Shown in pieces: positions 9,237 to 59,040 of a stretch of DNA of 64,000 nt. The position numbers and the translations under genes are program-made. The notes beneath the pieces are model-generated. The model saw nothing but the letters and a program-made list of their open reading frames with translations. It did not search any database and was not told where the DNA came from. Source of the stretch: Sclerodactyla briareus (taxonomy: Eukaryota > Echinodermata > Holothuroidea > Dendrochirotida > Sclerodactylidae); the NCBI GenBank assembly GCA_026419785.1, contig JAODTK010005776.1, forward strand, positions 1-64,000, read 5' to 3'. Position 1 is the stretch's first letter; the number at the start of each line of letters is the position of its first letter.

Positions 9237-10245
9237 ATTAAAAGTTTGACCCTAAAAATGGCAATAAGACATTTGATGGACTGGTAAAATGGCTATTGAT
9301 AAAAGATTTTAAACAGTTATGCACTTGTCCAATTGCATGACCCACCCTTGTACCCCACACACGGTGAGTCATTGCACTAGGTGAGGTCAACAAAATGATG
9401 CACCCCTCAGTCACTTTTTGTCCTGAAAATAATAAAATTGTATACCCCCCAGAAACTTTAAGAAGACCACAGACTCCTCTGCTTACGAATTGAAAAGATT
9501 TACTGGCAATGACTTTCCCCTCGGTCACATTAGTGATTAACGACATATGGTACAATGACCACATGTGTGACCCCATGCTATTGGACACTGTCTGTACCTA
9601 CAATGAAATCACAGTTTCCCAGGGTAGTTAGGTATTGAATTGACAATATAATAGGCTGTATTGCGAATGCACTTCTCTACCCACCCATAATTCTCCCAAA
9701 AAGGGAATTGTTATGATGTTGATGATGTTGGTCTATTCCGATTCAAAGAACTGGCCACTTCCATACCCCCCCCCCCCCCCCCCCCCCCCCCCAATCTATC
9801 TGCTTTGACCACACCAGTTCTTAAGAGTGATAAATTCCGCTGAAGTGATCCTCATCATTTAGCCTTGTCTGCCATGCCTGCAGTCCCTGCCGACTCAGGT
9901 TACGGTCACCCCCACCCCCGCTAGTTCTTTCCACACTGACTGAAAACGTTGGACCTCACTGGTTATGATCGTAACTTGACCTTCTTCTCTTCAGTAAACA
10001 ATAAAAACAAAAACCCCTTGTACTTACCAGGTTTAATTTTTCAGTATTTTACTTCAATTCTCCTCAGATGACTTTTTGACCAAGGTCAAAAAGCACCAAG
10101 CATCTCTTGCGGTTGGTAAATTTTGCAGGTGATCGTTTTGCGTCAAGTTGTGGTTTGAGTTGGCAACACACATCTAGCAGGGTTTGATATAGCTGAATCA
10201 TCTTGGTGATGCCATGACCGAAAAAAGGCAAGGAATCACTACGCA
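9237..10245. other. No recognised gene; C27 homopolymer
   Basis: The minus-strand open frame 9238-9588 (116 codons) has no recognisable domain or splice signals and is left unassigned. A run of 27 C occupies 9766-9792, preceded by GATGATGTT repeats near 9715-9732. Confidence 0.5.
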
Positions 10246-22905: not shown

Positions 22906-23300
22906 AACTGGATTGTGGATGCATGGCAGTAAACTTGATGTGGTGTGCGGAAGATTAAAATGATAGCTGCTCAGATAAGGTCTCGTGCCCCCATTTTTCA
23001 GCATGTAACTAACGCTCATTCACTTGGCAATGAAATGACTGTGATGCAAGCACTCCTAAGATCCTCGGCATGGTCCGTCAAATGTGGGTCATTGTCTAAT
23101 CGGAAGTGACTCACATGTCCGTCACGTTCCTGAACGGTCAGTAACAAAACTGACTCTGGGTTGTGCAATTTCATGCGGATTATTTAGAAGGTAATAGAAA
23201 AAAGACAGGAAATTGTTATCAAAGTGACTGAGGGATTTGTCAATGTACAAGAATTGTATGAAGGACCATGACAATGACTCAGTGGATGGTCATCGAGTAT

Positions 23301-26445: not shown

Positions 26446-28423
26446 AAGCCAAAAGGCTTAGTGATCTCTTGACTCTTCCTGACAACCGATAACCAGACAC
26501 AAGGACAAATGGGATTGCACCAGCTCAATTATGGTACCTAACTCTACCAAATTCCCCATTTTTCCCAAACCATCAATAGGACTCTTATACCTTGAAAGGA
26601 AGCACACCAAATTTCAGGTTTCAAGACTCTGACCTCTGGTTACCTCAATTGACCTCTGACCTCTTGACCTCCCAAACAATAGGGCATGGTACTCACAGGG
26701 AACTTACATACCAAGCAGGAGCTTCATCAATCGGGTGGGGTCAAGTTATCGTGTTTACAAGTCAAAATTGGCCAAAATATCACTTTTCACCAATTCCATT
26801 TTTGAACAAAATCACCCCCGACCTGGACCCAAACAATGTGTTCTCCTCGTACTCCCCATAAGAAAGCTCCACACGGAAGCGCAACAGATCAGACCACCAT
26901 TCTGGACTTATCGTGTGGGGTTACAGGTTGTGTCATGTGGACTTTGACCTCTGTTGGCTCCGTCGTGACCTGGACGGGCGCGCGTGACGGGGGGTATGTG
27001 TGTCAAATGGTCCGTGGCCGTGCTCGTAGTGAACACACATACCAATATGAGCTTCATCGCGGATCCGTGAGTGGAGTTTTTCATGTTTACAAGACCAAAT
27101 CTGGGACGTGCTGGCCAAAACGTATTAGAGCTTTTCACAATTTTTTTCTAGGTGTGCAACACCAAAATTCACTCCGCGACCTGAACCAAAACCGGTACTT
27201 GTCCTGTACTCCCATAGAAAACTATCGGGCTAAATTTCCAACTTGTTCAGCCAACCACTTGGACTTATCGGGTTTACACGGTTTCAGACTTTGACCTCTG
27301 GTTGACCTCCTGACCTGACCCCAAAACAGTAGGGTTAATGTACTATTCATGAGGAACAACTACAAGTATGAGCTTCATCCATCCGGGTGGGTGGAGAGCT
27401 ATATGTTAAGGCCCAAATTTGCCAAAATATTGAACTTTAACAAATTTTATATTTTCGACCAAAATTTCACTCCCGACCTGAACAAAAAAAAAAGTAGGTT
27501 CCTGTATCCCCATGAGAAAGCTATACACTAAAATTTCAACTGGTGATAAGACCAACTATTCTGGACTGAGCGTGTTTACAAGGATTTTCCAGACTGACTC
27601 CGTTGGACCTTAGAGGACCTTGCCATGACCCCAAAACAGTAGGGTTCATGTACTCATCATTATGGGGAACACAACATACCAAGTATGAGCTTCATCCATA
27701 CGGGTGAGTGAGTTTTCATGTTTACAGACCCAAATCTGACCAAAATATTGACTTTTCACAATTTTTCTATTTTCAACCAAAATTCACTCCCGACCGAACC
27801 AAAAACAGTAGGGGTCTGTGCTCCCCATATGAATGCTATACACTAAATTTCAACTGGTAAGAAAAAACCAACCCTTCTGGACTTATCGTGTTTACAAGTT
27901 TTCAGACTTTTTTGACCCTCCTGTCTGCCTATGACCTGACCCCAAACACGTAGGGTTTCATTGTACTCATCCATTAGGAACACACATACAAGTATGGTTA
28001 TCCATCCGGTGGGGTGGAGTATCATGTTACAGGCAAAATTGCAAAAATATTGACTTTTCACAATTTTTCTATTTTCGACCAAAATTCACTCCGACCTGAA
28101 CAAAAACAGTAGGGTGTTCCTGTAATCACCATGAGAAAGCTTTACACTAAATTTAAACTTGTTAAGACCAACCATTCTGGACTTAGCGGTGTTTACAAGG
28201 TTTTCAGACTTTGACTCCGTTGACCTTAGATGAAGACCTCTTACCTGAACCCCAAAACAATAGGGTTCAATGTCTCATCATGGGGAACACACATAACCAA
28301 GTCTGAGCTTCATCCATTTAGGTGGGTCGAGTTACCGTGCTTTACAAAGCCAGCGTCTACATACACCATACACACACACACACTGTCCTGACTGCATAGA
28401 TTCCTCGACTTTGTCAAGGAATC
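26446..28423 (+). mobile_element. Helentron-like (HINE-like) element with internal ~310-bp tandem units, copy 1
   Basis: The 5' end has a small hairpin AAGCCAAAAGGCTT and then GTGATCTCTTGA (26461). The 3' end has a hairpin GATTCCTCGAC-TTT-GTCAAGGAATC (28399-28423) whose outer arm is the inverse of the 5' TGATTCCTTGA motif. Between them lie about six diverged units spaced about 305-335 bp, each marked by CACATACCAAGTATGAGCTTCATCC (about 26703, 27035, 27357, 27677, 27990, 28297) and GACCTGACCCCAAAACAGTAGGG. A CA microsatellite (28366-28382) precedes the 3' hairpin. This layout (subterminal inverted repeats, tandem core, microsatellite, 3' hairpin) is that of HINE/Helentron non-autonomous elements; no Rep/helicase is present. 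Confidence 0.7.
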
Positions 28424-29949: not shown

Positions 29950-30076
29950 ATCACTCCTCTCTGTACTGTGAAATGCTTCGCTTCGTAATGGAGCAGGTTC
30001 GTCCCCCAGAGGCCAATCCAGTATTTGGACCATGACGTCACCTGAAGGTATGGAATGGAGTGATCGATTTGGGAAT
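29950..30076 (-). CDS. RALGPS: RALGPS exon: PH domain core strands
   Basis: Acceptor CACCTCCCCCCTCCAG and donor GAT|GTGAGTGA. It reads VTSWSKYWIGLWGTNLLHYE, corresponding to the family's VASWTKYWAALCGTQLFYY in strands 2 and 3 of the PH domain, preceded by SQIDHSIPYLQ and followed by AKHFTVQRG. The W-x-K-Y-W signature is highly specific. No indel is needed. The next exon in gene sense is 26147-26254 (FKSKP..), as in the family. The end phase does not join cleanly without an indel at the border. Confidence 0.9.
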
Positions 30077-32699: not shown

Positions 32700-33637
32700 T
32701 TAGAACTTCTCGACTACTCCCCTGCCTGGGCCCTGGGCTACATAATACTGAGCAATATTTGGAGTACTTACCTATCTGGGCCTCGGACATACAGAATACT
32801 GAGCAGTATTTGTGTCCTGTACCTGCCTTGGCCTCATGACATCAGAATATTGAGGGGCGTATTTGGAGTTACTTACCCTTCCTGAGATTTGGACATACAG
32901 AATACTGAGCATATTTGGAGTACTTACTGTCTAGGCTTTGGAGCATCACATATAAGAGCATATTGGTGTCTTACCCTTCTGAGCCTTGGACATATATGAA
33001 GACTGAACAGTATTTTGTGTACTTTCCCTTCGAGCCTCGACATACAAAAAACTGAGCAGTATTTGGTGTACTTACCTGTCTGAGCTTTGGACATACAGAA
33101 TACTGATCAGTATTTGGTGTACTTACCTGCCTGGGCCTCGGACATACAGAATACTGAGCAGTATTTGGTGTACTTACCTGTCTGAGCTTTGGACATACAG
33201 AATACTAAGCAGTATTTGGAGTACCTACCTGCCTGGGCCTCAGACATACAGAATACTAAGCAGTATGTGGAGTACTGACCCTTCTGAGATTTGGACATAC
33301 AGAATACTAAGCAGTATTTGGAGTACTTACCTGCCTGGGCCTCAGACATACAGAATACTGAGCAGTATTTGGAATACTGACCCTTCTGAGATTTGGACAT
33401 ACAGAATACTAAGCAGTATTTGGAGTACTTACCTGCCTGGGCCTCAGACATACAGAATACTGAGCAGTATTTGGAATACTGACCCTTCTGAGATTTGGAC
33501 ATACAGAATACTGAGCAGTATTTGGAGTACTCACCTGTCTGAGCTTTGGATATCCAGAATACCAAGCAGTATTTGGTGTATTTACCCATCTAGGATTTGG
33601 ACATACACAATACTGAGCAGTTTTTAAGAGTACTTAC
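32700..33637 (-). repeat. 51-bp minisatellite carrying repeated 5' splice sites
   Basis: About 18 units of 51 bp. On the gene-sense (minus) strand a unit runs GTGAGTACTCCAAATACTGC, TCAGTATTCTGTATGTCC, AAATCTCAGAAGG and repeats. Eight units contain GTAAGTA exactly, several as CAG|GTAAGTAC; others have GTGAGTA or GTAAATA. The unit nearest the exon at 33638-33695 (TAGATGG|GTAAATAC) is the one most like that exon's own border (CAGATGG|GTAAGTAC), so the array appears to have grown from the exon-intron junction. 51 is a multiple of 3, so a 160-codon frame (33107-33589) of 17-residue repeats is open, but it is not in the exon's frame. Confidence 0.9.
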
Positions 33638-33695
33638 CCATCTGGATTGATCCAGACCTCTTGGTCATCGTTGTACTCTGAATCCTCACTGCTGG
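33638..33695 (-). CDS. RALGPS: RALGPS exon: acidic-serine linker
   Basis: Acceptor GTTCTTACCATTCACAG, donor GATGG|GTAAGTAC. Joined to the preceding exon it reads VSIASSEDSEYNDDQEVW and on to INPDG, aligned with the family's ISIGSSDGSELSEE. The exon is 58 bp, enters in phase 1 and leaves in phase 2, both matching its neighbours, with no indel. The 51-bp minisatellite begins at its donor. The segment is acidic and probably unstructured. Confidence 0.85.
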
Positions 33696-36595: not shown

Positions 36596-37740
36596 TCAGG
36601 GTATTATATAGTGGTAGCCATGGATCAGACTTTTTTTATTGTAACCCAGATGTTTTCTCACAGCATGTTCATTTCCTACCAGAAAGCATAACATTTTAGA
36701 TTTATTTCTTTTAGTAGTGATCCAGGTTCTATGGATGAGGTAGGGGGTTTAGGTTTTAAGGTTATAGCTTTCAATGTGTCTTGTTCTGTCAATATTCCAC
36801 AGAGCGTTGAGCTTGTTCCTTGTTTCTCGAGGGACGATTTGGATGGCATTTCTCGGTTTCTGAGTATTAATGTAGATTGGCCTAAATTATTAGACGGTTT
36901 GAATGCTATTGATTCAGGGAAGGATTTCATTGGAAAAGTTAACAAGATGATGGAAGGTTACGTTCCTAAGAAACGCACTAAGAACAAAAGGCCTTGTTGG
37001 ATGACATGGGAGTTTTTTCTGGCCATTAAACAAAAGAGACATCTTTGGCGACTTTATTGTTCTACTCGCTCCTCATCTGATTAGATTGGTTCAAAGTTCA
37101 AGAAAAGCGAGTCCAATGTTAGTTCTGGTGCTATTGAGAGGCAGATTGCCTCTAACATAAAGGATAATCCTCGTGCGGTTTTCTCTTAGGTCAGGGGGAA
37201 GTAGAAGTCAAGGACAGCATTGGTCCATTGTTAGTTTCCGATTCGGGTAATAAAACCAGCGATAATCAGGAGATGGCCAGCGTATATTTTCTTCGGTAGT
37301 CAACATGAGAACTGGAGTGCTCATAAAGTCTTGGTATATGTAGTTCACCCCTGATGTGACAGAGGAAGAAAGCAGGACACTCCAAAAGTGGTTAAAGTCC
37401 TGGTTCCACTTCTTATTGAAATTTTCTGCCGACAAGTTGTCTGTTACATTAGCGATTGTTTTCAATGAAACCTTGCAAGAAGGTCTTGTTCCGGATGATT
37501 GGAGGAGAGCAAACATTTCTCCTATTTTCAAGAAAGGCAATCAGTCTCTTCTTCCTAATTACAGGCCAGTGAGTCTTACTTGTGTTATTGTCTGCAAGGT
37601 GTTGGGATCCATTATCAGGATCATGTGGTCGATTTTTTCAATGAGTACAGTCTAATTCGGGGTTCCAGCATGGTTTTTTAGTAAAAATCGTTCCGACAGG
37701 GCTTGGATTCTGCACCAGCAGTCACTCTAATACCATACAT
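36596..37740 (+). mobile_element. CR1-like non-LTR retrotransposon fragment (endonuclease end, linker, start of reverse transcriptase)
   Basis: In order on the plus strand: endonuclease C-terminal text (ILDLF followed in another frame by SSDPGSMDEVG, 36690-36750), a linker with DWPKLLDGLNAIDSG and KKRTKNKRPCWM (36873-37015), IGPLLVSDSGN..SDNQEMASV (37220-37282), and the start of RT: LQEGLVPDDWRRANISPIFK, KGN, NYRPVSLTCV, IIR.HVVDFFNEYSLIRGS (37468-37665). The VP-DW-A-I-PIFKKG-NYRPVSLT sequence is the first RT block of CR1/L2-group LINEs. Frames change at least four times and the catalytic YxDD block is absent, so the copy is dead and truncated. It lies antisense in a RALGPS intron. Confidence 0.85.
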
Positions 37741-37846: not shown

Positions 37847-38646
37847 AAAGCCAAAAGCTTAGTGATTCCTTGAATCTTTCTGACAACCTACAGCTGGACG
37901 CAAGGACAAAGGGTAGATTGTACCAGCCTCTTATGGGCAACACAACGTCCCATTTTTCCCAACCAACCAATAGGGCTCCTATACTCATGATAAAGAAGCT
38001 ACACACTAAATATCCAGGTTTTCAGACTCTTACTTGGTGACCTCAATAAACTCTGACCTGACCCCAAAACATTAGGGTTATGTACTCATCATGGAGAAAC
38101 TCACATACCAAGTATGAGCTTCATCCATCCAGGTGGGGTCGAGTTATCGTGTTTACAAACCAAAATTGGCCAAAATCTCGACTTTTCATGTACTCATCAT
38201 GGGGAACGCACATACCAAGTATGAGCTTCATCCATCCAGGTGGGGTCGAGTTATCGTGTTTACAAGCCAAAATTGGCCAAAATATCATTTTTTGACTATT
38301 TCCTAATTTCCCAAAAGGACCCCCCAATCAACACCCGAAACAATAGGGTTTTTGTACTCACCATAAGAAAGCTACACATAAAATTTCAGCTTGATCGGAC
38401 CAACTGTTTGGACTTATCCTGTTTTACAACAAGGATTCCGACCCCTTTGTACCTCTAGTGACCTCAGATGACCTTTGACCTGACCCCAAATCAACAGGGA
38501 TCATGTACTCATCATGGGGAACGCACATACCAAGTATGAGCTTCATCCATCCAGGTGGGGTCGAGTTATCGTGTTTACAAGCCAAAGCATCACACACATA
38601 CACACACGACATGACTCATAGATTCCTCGACTTTTGTCAAGGAATC
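37847..38646 (+). mobile_element. Helentron-like (HINE-like) element, copy 2
   Basis: Same family as 26446-28423: 5' AAGCCAAAAGCTTAGTGATTCCTTGA (37847-37873), internal CATACCAAGTATGAGCTTCATCCATCC (38104, 38212, 38527), (CA)-rich stretch (38589-38607) and 3' hairpin GATTCCTCGAC-TTTT-GTCAAGGAATC (38621-38646). It holds only two to three core units, one shortened to about 105 bp, so the two copies differ mainly in tandem-unit number. Confidence 0.75.
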
Positions 38647-41100
38647 AAGAACAAATCGAAGAACAGGGTTTGTGGAATATGTGACATGAGTATAGTGTGC
38701 ATCTATATGTTAGGTGCCATCCAGGCTAGTAAAATGCACTTCAGATGAAAAGGTGATCCACAGAGTCGAAATCCTTGAAAATCAAGATGACCACTGAGGG
38801 TTTACAACCATCAAAACATGTGAAAACGGTTTGTTGATTGAATATCATAGTGAGGTGTGGTGTTTGATCAATATTTAAGCAAATCTAAAAACGCGTAGGA
38901 AATGGGTTAGCGAACAAATCGTGTGAGCAGACATTTCGTCTGGGAAAAAGAGAAGCACAACGGTGGGAATGCTGGGAAACTTAGAAAGTACTTATAGAGG
39001 TGGTGCACAGTATCATACAAGTCATGTAAGATATGTGAGTAGGTACCCAACGTTACTTTTCCTGGTGTCTCACACTCAGTCCTCCAGATGCATATCCAGC
39101 CGATATGTTATTGAAAATAAGACAGATCCCTTGTAAAGTTTGGGGGGGGGGGGGTCACTAAAGCCCACCTAATGCAGGTAAAAGAAAGACACATCAAAAC
39201 CCCCACCTACAATTTGGAGGTTCAAGAAAATTGCCTCGTTTCAATTTCAATTTACTTTTTATGAACTTGGGACATTTATGACAGAGGTCTTCACATTAAT
39301 AATATTAATTTATTCCTCCATTTTTTGGCGAGCAATTGTACTAGCTTTCCATCCAGATCCCATCTATAGTTAATTTGTTACAGGGTGTTCAAGAGTATCT
39401 GTCATACATAAATGTGTATTCCAAGGGATTCTGCCCTATCTCTGTGAGGTAACAAGAGTATTCCCACAACGGGGCCTTTTGTGCCTTATTGGCTGGCGCA
39501 CTATGATTGGCTGAAATTTAGTCTGAGGGTTCAGCTCCCATTATAATTAATTGAAAGTACCAAAACGCCACCAGTAAGTCATCTTTACATGATCATTGTA
39601 CGTCAGTCTGACACGTCCACAGTATTTGACATGTGTGCATAGCACAGCATCAGCTCTAGTAGCATGCACCAGGAGGGGGGGGGGGGAAATACCCCCTCCC
39701 TCCTGAAATTAGGTGAGAAAACCCCCTTTTTTTTTTTGCTGATTTTCTAGGTATAATGAATATGTTTCACCATTCCTTTGTATTCTCACATGCAAATCCC
39801 TGCAGAAATCCTGGCACTATAAAATTTCTTGGAAGTCTTCACGAGAAACATCATCAGGATTCCAGTCTGTGGTTGATAGTTCTTGCCTCTCACTCCAGTA
39901 AATGATTATCGTTCACTCAGAGGCAGATGAGGGGAGGAACAGTATCAGGGTGTGGGAAAGGGAAAGGGGGCATGAAACACCGCCCTCATTGAAGTCCTTG
40001 ATTGTTTTTTTGTTTTGTTTTTTTCAAAATCCCAATGCTGGCATGCAGATGTTAGTAAATCACATGAATGGTGCGTGACAATAGTTAACAGCACATCAAC
40101 ATATCAGAAACTCATTGGAAAGATCAATCAAATGTGAATGTAACAATCATGACGACAACAGCGGGGTGCACAAGTTCGACGAGACGATGTGACAACTGAT
40201 ATGTGCATGAGAAAAAGAGGCAGAGTTGAAGAATTATCATGTCAAAACGAATCTTGCACAACAATTAGGAGAACAGTGTCACACGAACAAGAAAACAATG
40301 AATGATAGGAGACTCCATCATCAGAAAGGCAATGAAGATGTACAAATTTCACCATGGATATTCATATGAGTTACCTTGTATAAAAGCATTTCTATCTTTT
40401 GGCCATATGATTATATTAACAATTTTAGGTGTTTGTGTTATTACGCACAAAATTTTCTACTCTGCACTATTACTCAATCGGGGCAGTGACACATTTTGAT
40501 AACTAGTCAGGCAGCATTGGTTGATTTAGATCAGGCTGATTCAAATGAATCACAATTTTAATATTAGGGATTATTCTTTTAGAGGATTATTATGCAACAT
40601 TAAAGAATATCACACCACTGGTTTAGTTCGACTGACGACCACGTTCTAAATAGTGATGTTACGGCGGATATTAGTTGGGTGAGTGACACACAGCTGGAGA
40701 GAGAATGACACCACATGACACAACATGCTGAAGAGGAGGACAACCTCACCTTAAGGTATCTAACTGATTCACCTGATTCGGTATACTGCAAGAATAATGG
40801 GTTGAGACATACGGGGTATAAGTGGTATACAGATTATGATCAAACTTGTCAGCAATACCAGTATCACCACCATTTTTTTAAAGGAGCACAAGATCCGTTC
40901 AATAGGAAGCATCTTTGAGATGCATGCTAGTGTAACAATGTACTTGCCAATAGGAATATGACCCCTCCCCCCTCATTGTGGGAACGTTGTCCATTAACCT
41001 GTAACTCACAAATAGGTCACGTACCAACGTTGTCAGTCACTGATGTGAATGGAGCTCAAGTCAAAACTGTACAGCACATCATTAATACACTAATTGGAGA
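38647..41100. other. Intron; poly-G tracts, no exon seen
   Basis: G13 at about 39141-39153 and G12-13 at about 39675-39687, each followed by CCCCCT-rich text; T and A tracts near 39727 and 40005-40025. From about 40980 degenerate copies of the following satellite appear (GTCAGTCACTGATGTGAATGGAG). Confidence 0.45.
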
Positions 41101-41139
41101 ATGACCCCCCTCACTACCACACTACACTACCCACTGCTA

Positions 41140-42900
41140 TCCAGTAGCAATGTGACTCACATGTGAGTCATTGTACAAATGTTGTCAGTCACTCATGTGA
41201 ACAGTGAATGAAGTCAATCTGTACGGCATAGCACGAACTGTGTTCTGTGAAAGTGACTGGGTGAGTCATGGTAGGGTCACTGTCCAGTGGCGAGGTGACT
41301 CACCTGTGAGTCATTGTACCAGTGTTGTCAGTCATTCATGTGAACAGTGAATGGAGTCAATCTGTACAGCATAGCATGAACTGTGTGGTCTGTTGAAAGT
41401 TACTGGGTGAGTCATTGTAGGGTCACTGTCCAGTAGCGAGGTGACTCACCTGAGTCATTGTACCAGCATTGTCAGTCACTCATGTGAACAGTGAATGAAG
41501 TCAATCTGTACAGCATAGCATGAACTGTGGTTTGTTGAAAGTGACAGGGTGAGTCATTGTAGGGTCACTATCCAATAGCGAGGTGACTCACATGTGAATC
41601 ATTGTACCAGCATTGTCTGTCAGTCATTCATGTGAACAGTGAATGAAGTCAATTGTACAGCATAGCATGAACTGTGGTTTGTTGAAAGTGACAGGGTGAG
41701 TCATTCTAGGGTCACTGTCCAGTAGCGAGGTGACTCACATGTGAGTCATTGTACCAGTGTTGTCTGTCCCTCATGTGAACAGTGAATGAAGTCAATCTGT
41801 ACAGAATAGCATGAACTGTGGTTTGTTGAAAGTGACTGGGTGAGTCATGGTAGGGTCACTGTCCAATAGCAAGATGACTCACAGGTGAGTCATTGTACCA
41901 GTGTTGTCTGTCAGTCACTCATGTGAACAGTGAATGAAGTCAATCTGTACAGCATAGTGTGAACTGTGTTCTGTTGAAAGTGACTGGGTGAGTCATTGTA
42001 GGGTCACTGTCCCGTAGCGAGGTGACTCACATGTGAGTCATTGTACCAGTGTTGTCAGTCATTCATGTGAACATTGAATAAAGTCAATCTGTACAGCATA
42101 GCATGAACTGTGGTCTGTTGAAAATTACTGGGTGAGTCATTGTAGGGTCACTGTCCCGTAGCGAGGTGACTCACATGTGAGTCATTGTACCAGTGTTGTC
42201 TGTCAGTCACTCATGTGAACAGTGAATGAAGTCAATTGTACAGCATAGTGTGAACTGTGTTCTGTTGAAAGTGACTGGGTGAGTCATTGTAGGTCACTGT
42301 CCCGTAGCGAGGTGACTCACATGTGAGTCATTGTACCAGTGTTGTCAGTCATCATGTGAACAGTGAATGAAGTCAATCTGTACAGCATAGCATGAACTGT
42401 GGTCTGTTGAAAATTACTGGGTGAGTCATGGTAGGGTCACTGTCCAGTAGCGAGGTGACTCACATGTGAGTCATTGTACAGTGTTGTCAGTCATTCATGT
42501 AAACATTGAATGAAGTCAATCTGTACAGCATAGCATGAACTGTGTGGTCTGTTGAAAATTACTGGGTGAGTCATTGTAGGGTCACTGTCCAATAGCAAGA
42601 TGACTCACAGGTGAGTCATTGTACCAGTGTTGTCAGTCATTCATGTAAACATTGAATGAAGTCAATCTGTACAGCCTAGCGTGAAATGTGGTCCTTGAAA
42701 GTTACTGGGTGAGTCATTGTAGGGTCACTGTCCCGTAGCGAGGTGACTCGCATGTGATGTCATTGTACCAGGGTTGAGAGTCATTCATGTAAACATTGAA
42801 TGAAGTCAATCTGTACAGCCTAGTGTGAAATGTGGTCTGTTGAAAGTTACAGGGTGAGTCATTGTAGGGTCACTGTCCAGTAGCAAGGTGACTCACATTT
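41140..42900. repeat. ~144-bp satellite rich in AP-1-type sites
   Basis: Twelve complete units of 142-148 bp, with starts at 41152, 41295, 41441, 41583, 41730, 41874, 42022, 42166, 42312, 42455, 42600, 42743 and a last start at 42888. Each unit has TGACTCACATGTGAGTCA or a near form, then TTGTACCAGTGTTGTCAGTC, CATGTGAACAGTGAATGAAG, CTGTACAGCATAGCATGAAC and TGGGTGAGTCATTGTAGGGT. The 18-bp block is a perfect palindrome in at least six units (41153, 41731, 42023, 42167, 42313, 42456). TGA(C/G)TCA, the AP-1/bZIP consensus, occurs up to three times per unit. No spacers, so not CRISPR-like. Confidence 0.95.
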
Positions 42901-44205
42901 TAGTTGTTTTACCCAAGCACCACTCTTTTAAATTGTTTCAACTAGTACAGTAGAATGTTCTTTGGCTCCTTGTAAGTTGACTATGGGCTGTGTCACTTAA
43001 CTTGTTGGTCAGTCACAAAAAGGACGAGGGTATTGTCACTTCTTACCCATTTTGTTACCATACCTGGGTGGAATGACTCACTTCCTTTGGGGTATTAGGG
43101 ACGAGTCATGCATTCGTCATGGGCAAAATATCCCCCTTTTATTTTCCCCCAAATAGGTTCTTGAATCGAAACCTCCGTACCAGAGTTTCCTACTCAGTCA
43201 CAAAGACAATTTTTTGCGAATGGTTGCTTCACATGATTACTGTAGGGAGACTACTGGCAATTCAATTTTCCTCTCTCGGGAAGGTTGAGACCAAGCCAGT
43301 GTTTGGAATTGGGTAGGTTGCAGAAATTGTCCTCCCCCATTAAAGAATGGAGGGGGGCAGAGACCCATGGAGATATAACAGTGCATGAGGAATAGTGTGC
43401 ACCTAGGAGACTTTCAAGTTCACTATGACCCACAGAAGCACAGTTTGATAGGCCCTTGTGGCAGGATATAACCACACTGGAAAAAATTATGCAGCCTGTG
43501 TTGGTATGTTGGGTTGTCAGCATTATTAAACCCAGTGGCAGGCAATCTGCAATGACAAAGCCATCTCCATTTAAAGGCGCAACATTTCGGAATAGGATGT
43601 CAATTTGTGACACGACTGGACCATTTCTTGCACTTTTGTGATCAGATTGTAGCAGACCTAATAGTGACAATGGGAACCAACAAAAACAGGCACCAATCAT
43701 ACAGATTGTACCACGAATTGCACCAAAACAGAGTAAGTGAGGAAGGGGATAGGTGGGGAGGGGGGGGGGGGGGCGGTGACAAAAGAAGATGGGTCCTAAG
43801 GAATAACTCTAACAGGAACTTCTCTCTAACATCAACAGTAACTAAATTGCCTTATAAAGGATTATTTTGGGCTAAAAGAATATGATTGACGACTGACTTA
43901 CATTTAGGTTGCAGATGAGTTATGTTTAGTTTCATGATTCTTTCAATTTTGATATTTCCTCTCGTGACCAACATTCTACAGAGGTATAACAGATACACTG
44001 CTCTTTTAAGTGAAGACAACTGAACCGCCACCTGGGAGGCTGCTCATTAAAAGCATTCAGCCATGCAACCATTTTGATGACGTTGGCAACACTCCCGACC
44101 GGCCCACCACCTCCAAGGATAGGCTGCAGGATGAACGTACATATCTATAACACGAGGGAAAGCGGGGTATTCGTAGAAGGATCTCTGCAATTCACCAATA
44201 CTCAC
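42901..44205. other. Intron, no exon seen
   Basis: The 149-codon minus frame 43251-43700 has no splice borders or known domain. G14 near 43759-43773. TGACTCACTTCC (43074) and GAGTCATGCATTCGTCATG (43103) look like detached satellite motifs. Confidence 0.4.
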
Positions 44206-44305: not shown

Positions 44306-46741
44306 CTGAATGAAAAAGAAAAAAGAAAGAAGGGAGACATTATGAGAAGGCAGTGATGAATGAAGCCCTGAGTGGGTCATGGTAAATTGCTATAAGATAA
44401 ATTGCAAAGTTAATGCTAGTGTTGAGTTAGGGAGTACTGGTGGCCCAATTGAAGGTGTGGCAGCAAACAAGCAAGCAAGCAGACATGGGAATGCAATTAC
44501 CATTTTTTAAACGACACCAACATGTAATATCCCCCACAGTAGTGGAATCAGTGCAATCTCCATCGCAACAGTGGTGCGCTCGGGTTCCAGGGTGGTTGGA
44601 AGGCAAAAAATTTAACATGCTGAGATTTTTGTTCCATGATATGATTTGTTGTGAGCAAGAAAGAGAACACAAACACTGTAATGCTTCCATTGTTGTTATC
44701 TTGCCATTAGTACACAATGTCAAGTGAACAATGACCATAAAGTATCTTGAGAATAAGGTTTAAGACCGATGATGATGTCATCGTAGAGGCCTAAAACCCC
44801 AGGCAGGAAAAATTGGAGGAATCGCCATCATAATGGCAAATCCTCCAATTTTACATAGTCAGAGTAACACAAAACAATATAATTCAAATCAGAGGCTGAA
44901 GTGTCTAGGCATATTCACACTACATACAGGTAATCCACTGTATGCAGTTTCTACACTGTCATACTTGAAGAGCTGCTGAAGAGCTACTCAACTACATGCC
45001 CATGAAGAAATTTGAACTGACGAGCGGCAAGATTGCAATCTAGAAAACACCTATCATTGTAACACCAAATCGCAGACAGACAACCTATCAGATATCCAAG
45101 ATAACTTCTGCTGGTTTGAAGGTGATGTAATTTCCAAGATTCTTAAGGTTTACTCATTTCAGAAGCAACAAGCTGTGTAGCCTAAACTTTTTGTAACGTT
45201 AAGGGCAACTGATCACCTACACAGGTCGGTGACCCGGCAAACATTAACCGTATTTCGAAGGCTACTTGATACAGTTCAAGTAATTTACTATGCCCCGACC
45301 TATTGTTCCATTATCCGGAATAATAATTTTACCCATGGCACTAGGTGAGCTGTGTGTTATTCGTGTGTTAGACCTGATATTTTGAAAGATGAGCGTCGCC
45401 TAGGCTAGCCTTGTATTTTGTGAGCCAGGCGGTGGTATTTAGCTGGGTTATGTGTACAATCCGAGCAGCTATGCAGGCACGGGCACTGCGTAAACACATA
45501 CACAAGAGTATGTAATATGTAGCAGCAGTGTCGGACTTTCAGTGTGCGTATGCATGCTGTGCTATGTTGACTGTATGATGTATCATTGGAATGTTGTTAT
45601 GACACAAATGGTATCGCCAGGAAAGGGGACACAGGGTGGCAACTATGTTCAAAACAAAGGCTAATATGTATTCCGAGTTCATTTTGTGTACATGGTAAAG
45701 TACAGTTACTATGGCTCTGCGCACCAGCTAAACAATCAGATCACAGATAATCATAAATTCTTCTCAGACCCAGACACAGAATATGCAAAGCACCTACCCT
45801 CGACTGTCTCGATGCGACTCTTTTGCAATCAAACACAGAAACCAAAGAAGGTATTCATTTATGAATGCGCAAGAACCCAAAACTTCCTTCTGTATGCACC
45901 TGTCATTGCTTGATGCACTTCAATACCCTCCCTGGTCATGGTTATATTCGAATTGACTCACACGTGCGTCAATTTCTACAAGTGACTCTGGGGTGCGTCA
46001 TTTGACTCAGATTATGATCAATGACACTCCACAGTACTCACATGGGATGTCCAACTCCTCTTTGGACTTGTTGTTCTGTGAGGGAGGCTCTAGTTTGTAA
46101 TGAGAGTCTGGCAGGTGAAATAGTGGCATAAAGTGATAATCTAACAGAAATACTGATCAATATTAATTTATGGGTATGTCTCTCTAATCTGCATGAATCA
46201 ATGCCTGATTGGATTGATAAGATGCTTAGGGGTGAAGGTTCTTAGGTATGCAATTAAATGTATTGACCAGGTTTAAATCTGTTCTACAGTGTGGCAAACA
46301 GTGTCTCCAGTGAAATGTCTTGACCTTGACCTTCACAAGTCGGAACATTGTCACGGGCTCATTAAACCATTGCGTCCAAGTTTGGTCGACATTCATCACA
46401 GAATGACTGTTTGGGGGCCAAAAAGAAAATTGTTGACACAATGGATAGATAGATAGTGACATGCAGATTCTAGTAGCTCAACCAACAAGGCTGGTTTGAG
46501 CTGAAATTGGCGATGTTAATATGAGTTTGAGGACCATTATAACAATGACAGGTATCTCATGTGGGGGGTTGCCAGTTGCGCTGCTCTCTTTCCAGCAGGA
46601 TGAGTTAGGAATATACTTAGGCATATGGCACACAGGTAATGACGACCAGAGTGACTTGTTCAACTCACTGAAGTGGACTAACTTGAACAATAGATAGGAT
46701 TGATGGTGATAATAACGTTGAGTTTAGCCACAGGACCTAAC
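44306..46741. other. Intron, no exon seen
   Basis: Overlapping frames at 44427-44738 on both strands are mutual shadows. A near copy of the satellite palindrome, TGACTCACACGTGCGTCA, sits at 45954-45971, followed by TGACTCTG and TTTGACTCAGATT. Confidence 0.4.
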
Positions 46742-46995
46742 CTATCCCCCCGGCATCATTAAGCAGTTGTTTCAAACTAATTGTAGTTATTTTCTTCCAC
46801 AAACTTCTGCAGTTCCTCGATGTACCTCATAGACTTGAAGTAACTCTGTATGTGTGGCAAGGCTTGTACCATTACTCAGACTTCTGGAACTCCGATAGAA
46901 CCCTCAGTTATTATTCATTGTGCAGCACGGAGAAGATCACATGGAAAGTGTTTATTCATTTCGCATATTATATCACCCCTCTTCCGAGGGACTAA
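46742..46995 (-). CDS. RALGPS: RALGPS exon: end of RasGEF domain (5' border uncertain)
   Basis: Reads [20 protein letters not shown] then FVEENNY, aligned with the family's [28 protein letters not shown]; after indels it continues [12 protein letters not shown] to donor GATAG|GTTAGG, phase 1, which suits the next exon. Upstream are [14 protein letters not shown] blocks (family MNNILRIIADLQ) in changing frames. The acceptor is either AAGGCAG at 46996, adding [14 protein letters not shown].., or one erased by an error near 46919, where the tract TCTTCTCCGTGCTGCA stops just before ATGAATAAT; the second matches the family length better. About four indels are needed. Confidence 0.8.
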
Positions 46996-57480: not shown

Positions 57481-59040
57481 ACATCATGAAGGCCCTGCCG
57501 AGGCCGGCAGGTCGGCTCTGCCAAGCCATGGGTCGGCTCTGCCGAGCCATGGGCCAGCTCTGCTGCGCCGCGGGTTGGCTCTACGGAGTCATGGACCGTC
57601 CCACCGAGCCGTGGGCCGGCATCTACCCAGCCATGGGAGGCTCTGCAAGCAGTGGGTAGGTTTTCTGCCAAGCCGTGGTTCGCTCTGCGCGACATGGACC
57701 GGCATCTACTGAGCCGTGGGTCGGCGCTGCTTGGCCGTGGCTCGGCTCCGCTGAGCCGTGGCCCGCTCTTCCGAGCCGTTTGGTCGCCCTTGTCAAGCCG
57801 TGGGTCGGCCCGGCCATCAACCGGCATATAACCGAGCCGTGGGTCGGCTAGCCGTGGCCAGGCCTCCGCCGAGCCGTGGATCGGCATCTACTGAGCCGCT
57901 CTCCGCCCCCTCACCGCCGGGCCTGGTTCGCTCTGCCGGCCGGTCCGGCTTCTTCGCTACCGTGGCCGCCTGCTCTCGCGCACGATCGGCTCTACCGAGC
58001 CGTGGGTCCGCGCTGCCTGGCCGTGGAAAACCACCCCGTTCGGCTCTGTTCTCCGGAGCCGTGGGTCGGCTCACCGAGACCGTTGTCCCGCTGAGCCGAG
58101 TCCGTGTTTCCCGGCTCTGCGAGCCGTGGCCGTCTCTTCCGATCCGTGGTCCGGCTCTTCCGAGCCCTGGCCCGGCTCCACCGAAGCCGTGGCCGCGGTT
58201 CTGCCGAGCCGTGGCCGGTTTTCATGCCCGAGCCGTGGGCCGGCTCTTCCTAGCCGTGGGCCGGCTCTTTCGAGCCGCGGGCCGGCCCTTCCGAGCCGTT
58301 GGATGGCTTTGTTTCCAAGCCGTGGCCCGGCTCTTTCGAGCCGCGGGCCGGCTCTTCCGAGCCGTGGGCTGGCTCTACCGAGCCGTGGGTCGCTCAGCGC
58401 GAGCCGTGGGCGGGCTCTGCCGAGCCATGGACCGGCATCTACTGAGCCGTGTCGCGCTGCTGGCCGTGCCGGCGCTCCGCCAGCGTGGGCCCGCGCTCTT
58501 CCGGGCCGTGGGTCGGCCTTGTCAAGCCCTGGGTCGGCCCTGCCGAGTCATAGACCGGCAGATACCGAGCCGTGGGTCGCTCAGCCGTGGCCAGGCTCCG
58601 CGAGCTGTGGATTCGGCATCTACTGATCGCGGCTCCCCCCCCATCCAGCCGAGCCCTGGTTCTGCCTCGAGCCGTGGTCCGGCTCTTCCGAGCCGTGGCC
58701 CGGCTCTACTACCGAGCACGGGTCGGCTCTACCGAGCCGTGGTTCGGCGCTGCCTGGCCGTGGACCCCGTTCGGCTCTACTACCGAGCGTGGGTCGGCCT
58801 ACCGGCCGTGGTCCCTCTTAGCCGAGCCGTGTTCGCTCGGCCGAGCCGTGAGCCGGTCTTCCTACCGTGGCCCCGTCTCTTTCCGAGCCGTGGCCCGGCT
58901 CTTCCAAGCCGTGGCCCGGCTCACCCGAGCCGTTGCCCGGCTTCCCCGAGCTGTGGGTCGCTCACCCGAGCCGTGGGTCGGCGCCGGCTCTCCGAGCCGT
59001 GGTCCGGCTCTCTGGCTCCCAGAGCCAGGGCCAACAACGC
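57480..59040 (+). repeat. 21-bp minisatellite (GAGCCGTGGGTCGGCTCTNCC)
   Basis: Successive 21-bp units, for example CGGCTCTGCCGAGCCATGGGC at 57533-57553, with variants over about 1.5 kb. Because 21 is 7 codons, the plus frame gives heptads of the form GRLFRAV/GRLCRAM, and a 466-codon frame (57758-59158) stays open. Each unit carries GGCTC-NNCC-GAGCC, a small hairpin. GAGCCG(T/C)GG is shared with array A. No start context, splice site or conserved domain argues for a protein. Confidence 0.8.

Follow-up and report, generated by a model that had tools for sequence, protein, structure and literature searches.

The expansion of tandem repeats within MITEs is a route described in passages of two reviews (PMC12628747, PMC9659126), and satellites arising inside MITEs are already known as a kind. 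Among the examples given in these passages is miDNA4 of Xenopus (Scalvenzi and Pollet; PMC12628747, PMC9659126). As summarized there, it resembles the element described below in being a dispersed MITE with an internal monomer that is either single or arrayed. miDNA4 is presented as a Tc1/mariner MITE, whereas the present element is assigned no further than MITE-like, and the two are likened by description. Unlike the arrangement outlined for miDNA4, different copies of the present element repeat different segments. The Xenopus Xmix/Xstir sequences (Hikosaka and Kawahara, 2004; PMC12628747, PMC9659126) are also alike, in that the reviews' summaries tell of a MITE, an array and a composite of both. 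The Xmix/Xstir array may derive from internal MITE sequence, like the array considered here; the host differs, and this comparison too is one of description and not of sequence.

A further parallel is found in Medicago, where the PIF/Harbinger element MtPH-A6-4 is reported as a TIR element with interior 60-bp tandem repeats that promote rearrangement (PMC2213677). MtPH-A6-4 belongs to a plant family with a 3-bp TSD and autonomous members (PMC2213677); in the present element the target-site pair is identical in one of six copies having both termini. The tandem-repeat-containing MITEs of Donax trunculus (cited in PMC12628747) are alike by title alone, as invertebrate MITEs with tandem repeats.

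The present locus lies in a window of 64,000 nucleotides, which is the whole stretch of Sclerodactyla briareus DNA that was analysed. An earlier sequence-only reading had proposed twelve full units of about 144 bp, and this is borne out by TRF, which reports an array at 41140-42897 with a period of 144, 12.2 copies and 90% matches. The array and its perfect palindromes are as follows.

41140..42897, plus strand: tandem array of 12 full ~144-bp units and one partial unit (TRF, unit alignment)
41153..41170, strandless: first perfect TGACTCACATGTGAGTCA palindrome
Starts at 41731, 42023, 42167, 42313 and 42456: the other five perfect TGACTCACATGTGAGTCA palindromes

The units range from 142 to 147 bp in length, and their pairwise identity averages 0.892 (range 0.834-0.972; 66 pairs). 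Within 41140-42900 there are 34 TGASTCA motifs and six exact copies of TGACTCACATGTGAGTCA, in agreement with the earlier statements that the palindrome is perfect in at least six units and that some 30 or more AP-1-like sites lie in 1.75 kb. TGASTCA is the AP-1 consensus and TCACATGTGA an M-box; the AP-1-like consensus described in the sequence-only reading is supported. In the whole 64-kb window, TGASTCA is observed 50 times against 9.87 expected, the largest value in 100 dinucleotide shuffles being 17. Among the 12 full units, ten have a palindrome with no more than one mismatch, perfect in six of them; the palindrome has a 2-bp deletion in one of the two remaining units, and a substitution plus an insertion in the other. 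The third TGAGTCA of the unit is unbroken in all 12.

The gene context was determined by tblastn, with a human RALGPS1 sequence as the query. Two matches flank the array.

46783..46869, minus strand: RALGPS-like exon that precedes the array in the direction of the gene (tblastn E 3.5e-9)
29970..30041, minus strand: fragment of a RALGPS-like exon of the PH region that follows the array in the direction of the gene (tblastn E 0.002)

More RALGPS1-like stretches are present on the minus strand at 50.4 kb (E 8.6e-6), 61.8 kb (1.1e-4) and 53.3 kb (0.003), together with a weak match at 60.7 kb, also on the minus strand (E 0.048). The 50.4-kb exon matches Pfam RasGEF (E 4.6e-6), and the fragments at 46.8 kb and 30.0 kb gave no Pfam match. 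When the genome was searched for the RasGEF family, two other contigs came up and the array's contig did not. With a RALGPS-like exon at 46.8 kb and a later one, the array appears to sit in the intron between them, as the sequence-only reading had it; the 30.0-kb match (E 0.002) is the sole basis on which the gene would continue beyond the array. Elsewhere in the window, open stretches at 36692-37655 resemble, by eye, a LINE reverse-transcriptase remnant; the two LINE-like stretches had no Pfam match.

The exact palindrome occurs at eight places in the 319-Mb genome, six in the array and two elsewhere, compared with none for the control. When up to two mismatches are allowed, the palindrome TGACYCACATGTGRGTCA is found 426 times genome-wide versus 21 times in the control. 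Six such sites are present in 262 kb of contigs outside the array, against a maximum of one among 200 permuted palindromes, in a sample that is non-random because its three contigs were picked for exact palindrome copies; two of the six sites fall in the array's own contig. A genome search with one unit returned all 12 full units of this locus and full-length units nowhere else (11 candidates, all scored). Its other matches, in seven different contigs, were confined to the surroundings of the palindrome, and these seven palindrome-region loci, as well as others, show longer homology, single or tandem. Twenty further loci were considered, 19 of them picked from palindrome matches and one (C2257, L051) from the array's right flank. 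Sixteen of the 20, with some of the matches short, match a 208-letter draft of the element at E 0.01 or better, and a longer draft is matched at E 0.001 by 16 of the 20, again with some short matches. The other four loci do not match the 208-letter draft, and thus some palindrome-bearing sites have little else in common. In the open-licence papers searched the exact palindrome was not found, nor was a report joining AP-1, transposable elements, enhancers and TGAGTCA.

The dispersed element is a block of 326 bp, with matching of 0.82 inside and 0.39 in the flanks in an alignment of 21 copies (L051 plus 20 of the 41 other matches in the L051 search, mostly the longer ones; 312 candidates, 40 scored). 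It starts with TGCACTTGTCAATTGCATGA and closes with the inverse of TGCACTTGTCAATTGCATGA, and GGTGAGTCATTGT-like motifs are present in its body. The palindrome and the other TGAGTCA motifs are part of this element body. At its two ends the consensus has inverted repeats of ~57 bp, and 53 of the 57 first positions are identical between these ends when counted by eye (86% over 57 in the typed draft). The 22-bp terminus, with up to three mismatches, is found 569 times in the 319-Mb genome (262 forward, 307 reverse) versus twice in the reversed control; it should be pointed out that an intact element has two termini, so that each element can account for up to two sites. A search with the 3′ half of the element gave 570 candidates, of which 40 were scored, and a larger subfamily, which may or may not be a nested amplification, runs on past the 552 bp fetched. 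The element is short and high-copy, with sharp boundaries and terminal inverted repeats, as is characteristic of MITEs, and its ~326 bp are too short for a transposase. The sequence TWA is at six of ten left and nine of 12 right termini, and such target sites are suggestive of the PIF/Harbinger superfamily. Under the scripted rule, only one of the six copies having both termini shows an identical target-site pair; L051, passed over by that rule because its right end is altered, has TAA at each end when read by eye. A 52-bp stretch of the element consensus recurs at a 99-bp lag, and from this there seems to have been an old internal duplication in the element. In a separate observation at L029 (C2264, about 1060-1200), a copy adjoins a stretch read by eye as a PKNOX/MEIS homeobox exon.

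Element remnants extend the feature beyond the array, to about 40938 on one side and 43125 on the other. These and other copies in the window were evaluated by local alignment to a 335-letter draft, in comparison with shuffled sequence.

40938..41079, plus strand: truncated element copy (draft 2-179), beside the array-bearing copy; score 91 versus a shuffled maximum of 40
41085..41118, plus strand: second 5′ TIR-like end, directly adjoining the array on its left side; equalled by one shuffle in 500 (p 0.002), for a stretch picked by eye whose likeness had been noticed before the shuffle test
42933..43125, plus strand: element 3′ part including the inverted terminal repeat (draft 157-333); score 152 versus a shuffled maximum of 52
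9318..9660, minus strand: second, non-tandem element copy with 80% identity over draft 32-335; right limit approximate, the match proper stopping at 9628
23063..23124, plus strand: degenerate remnant, palindrome two mismatches off perfect; 23063-23170 scores 78 against the draft, shuffled maximum 41
45954..46005, plus strand: degenerate remnant, palindrome two mismatches off perfect, with a draft match of E 0.005 only; 45954-46060 scores 49 against the draft, shuffled maximum 34

The right flank of the array (42933..43125) also matches C2257 in the genome (70%, E 4.1e-6).

On the most probable reading, the array is a minisatellite that arose by growth within a single old copy of this dispersed, TIR-bearing, MITE-like element, and a probability of about 0.88 is given to this reading; the ~25% divergence of the array-flanking remnants from the draft element, the four loci that do not match the 208-letter draft and the mostly unequal target-site pairs count against it. 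An element copy would have been inserted in the RALGPS intron, after which part of its motif-rich body may have been duplicated, with slippage or unequal exchange between repeated GGTGNGTCA motifs as a possible cause; local homogenisation of the array units by unequal exchange would have come later. Three motif copies per unit, repeated in twelve units, lead to the many AP-1-like sites. The unit junction found here suggests that the GGTGNGTCA motifs may have guided duplications; this idea was not supported when put to a lag test, whose fractions (0.06-0.78) were not discriminating. That the element motifs were once subterminal transposase-binding sites is speculative. The locus offers a clear worked case of minisatellites that come out of a dispersed MITE-like element, where one genome contains single copies alongside arrays of several periods.

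At least five other loci have arrays of element parts with periods unlike 144 bp. The tandem arrays of element parts have periods of 163 bp in C2972, 54 bp in C1968 and 89 bp in C2517, and the C992 array consists of 46-47-bp units. A 67-bp array in C2373 has a 22-23-bp stretch near the terminus in common with the element. At positions 524-800 of L050 (C2598) there is a ~76-bp tandem repeat of the element's 3′ part that is without the palindrome, and array growth is therefore independent of the palindrome. A palindrome-specific duplication mechanism was considered and rejected, since the L050 array multiplies the 3′ part without it.

Two other origins have to be weighed against growth of the array within a MITE-like element. 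The occurrence of full-length units in this locus only is what would be expected of an independent intronic satellite whose units resemble other repeats by chance, but element 5′ and 3′ parts are at both array edges and the homology to single-copy elements spans much of the unit, which makes such an origin extremely improbable. Central satellite-like arrays are known in Helitron/Helentron elements, as mentioned in one review (PMC12628747), and this raises the question of whether the element, instead of being a cut-and-paste MITE, is of the Helentron/HINE or Pearl type and has a central satellite. This is very doubtful, however, given the inverted repeats of ~57 bp at both consensus ends. Helitrons are not known to have terminal inverted repeats. 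In addition, of 40 copies found by the terminus, 39 align over at least 230 of the 326 positions inside a span of 451 bp, too short to accommodate a long array.

A different question, compatible with an element origin, is whether the array is a functional bZIP/AP-1 enhancer cluster under selection, possibly a composite of AP-1 and M-box sites. The 34 exact sites in 1.76 kb speak for this, as does the third TGAGTCA, whose zero changes among the array units are matched by 6% of 7-bp windows. The 14 outer arm bases of the palindrome are also slightly less variable, with two changes (p 0.046, uncorrected). The sequence-only reading went further and described the palindrome as well kept, hinting at function or at a mechanism that favours the palindrome. 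Neither proposal is supported. The 18-mer has eight changes in the 12 array units, and as few or fewer are seen in 26% of 18-bp windows (permutation p 0.28); the palindrome has 5 variable columns out of 18 and the rest of the unit 40 out of 126 (Fisher p 1.0). The four central bases of the palindrome average 1.5 changes each, versus 0.66 overall. The dispersed copies are inconsistent, as set out below, and the L050 array dispenses with the palindrome.

Three sets of dispersed copies bear on the same question, the first two chosen without regard to the palindrome. Set one comprises all 40 scored matches of the 3′-half search (the query L034 and 39 fetched copies, among 570 candidates). In this set, the 18 bp homologous to the palindrome match at 0.807, below the 0.848 average, with 80% of windows equal or better, and this stretch is interrupted by an indel or gap in 18 of the 40 copies. 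In the subfamily consensus only six of nine positions pair, so that the palindrome is not a full one. Set two consists of copies with an exact terminus: from 51 zero-mismatch sites, eight already in set one and three others were excluded, 40 copies were fetched and 39 were used, one having covered fewer than 230 positions. The homologous 18 bp are average in this set (0.778 versus 0.770; 53% of windows equal or better), the reference being the 21-copy consensus rather than a consensus of the set's own. Set three is the 21-copy alignment, whose members were selected for their general similarity to L051, palindrome included, and here the 18 bp match at 0.892 and fall in the top 5% of windows. 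When 7-bp windows are ranked, none of the three sets places an individual TGASTCA site among the top 5%, and the best such site stands at 5.9%. Taken together, the copy sets appear to show no consistent sign of constraint, with the top-5% result of set three as the best contrary evidence, and outside that set the motifs do not seem to be conserved beyond their neighbouring sequence.

Selection for an enhancer cluster is thus very unlikely, and the sites arrive, moreover, with a high-copy element. AP-1-like motifs (up to one mismatch) exceed dinucleotide shuffles at p<0.05 in seven of eight single element copies, six of the eight having been found via the palindrome; of the two that were not, L051 shows the excess (12 versus 1.8) but the 9318 copy does not (3 versus 1.3, p 0.15). 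Outside the array, the array's own contig, C3019, has 39 exact TGASTCA against 35.7 expected (10 shuffles), and an AP-1 enrichment there was rejected. A present function would not be needed to explain the sites, and sequence alone appears to give little reason for a role in gene control; an AP-1 enhancer function of the array is accordingly a reading that the comparisons would not favour. A broader proposal, that a miniature transposon with AP-1/M-box-like palindromes has spread putative bZIP-responsive sites genome-wide, and that local tandem growth turned some into strong composite enhancers as in RALGPS, is most improbable. The locus serves as a warning that densely packed transcription-factor motifs can amount to no more than a multiplied transposon motif.

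The window has other tandem repeats detected by TRF. An array with a period of ~302 bp and 3.8 copies is at 27161-28317, and 51/102-bp units are in tandem at 32721-33638, with ~18 copies of the short unit. GC-rich 21-bp repeats (CCGGCTCTTCCGAGCCGTGGG) extend across ~1.5 kb at 57510-59026. A 107-bp unit is present in 1.9 copies at 38080-38283; it recurs by eye in other loci, e.g. L002 and L031, and is therefore probably another dispersed repeat.
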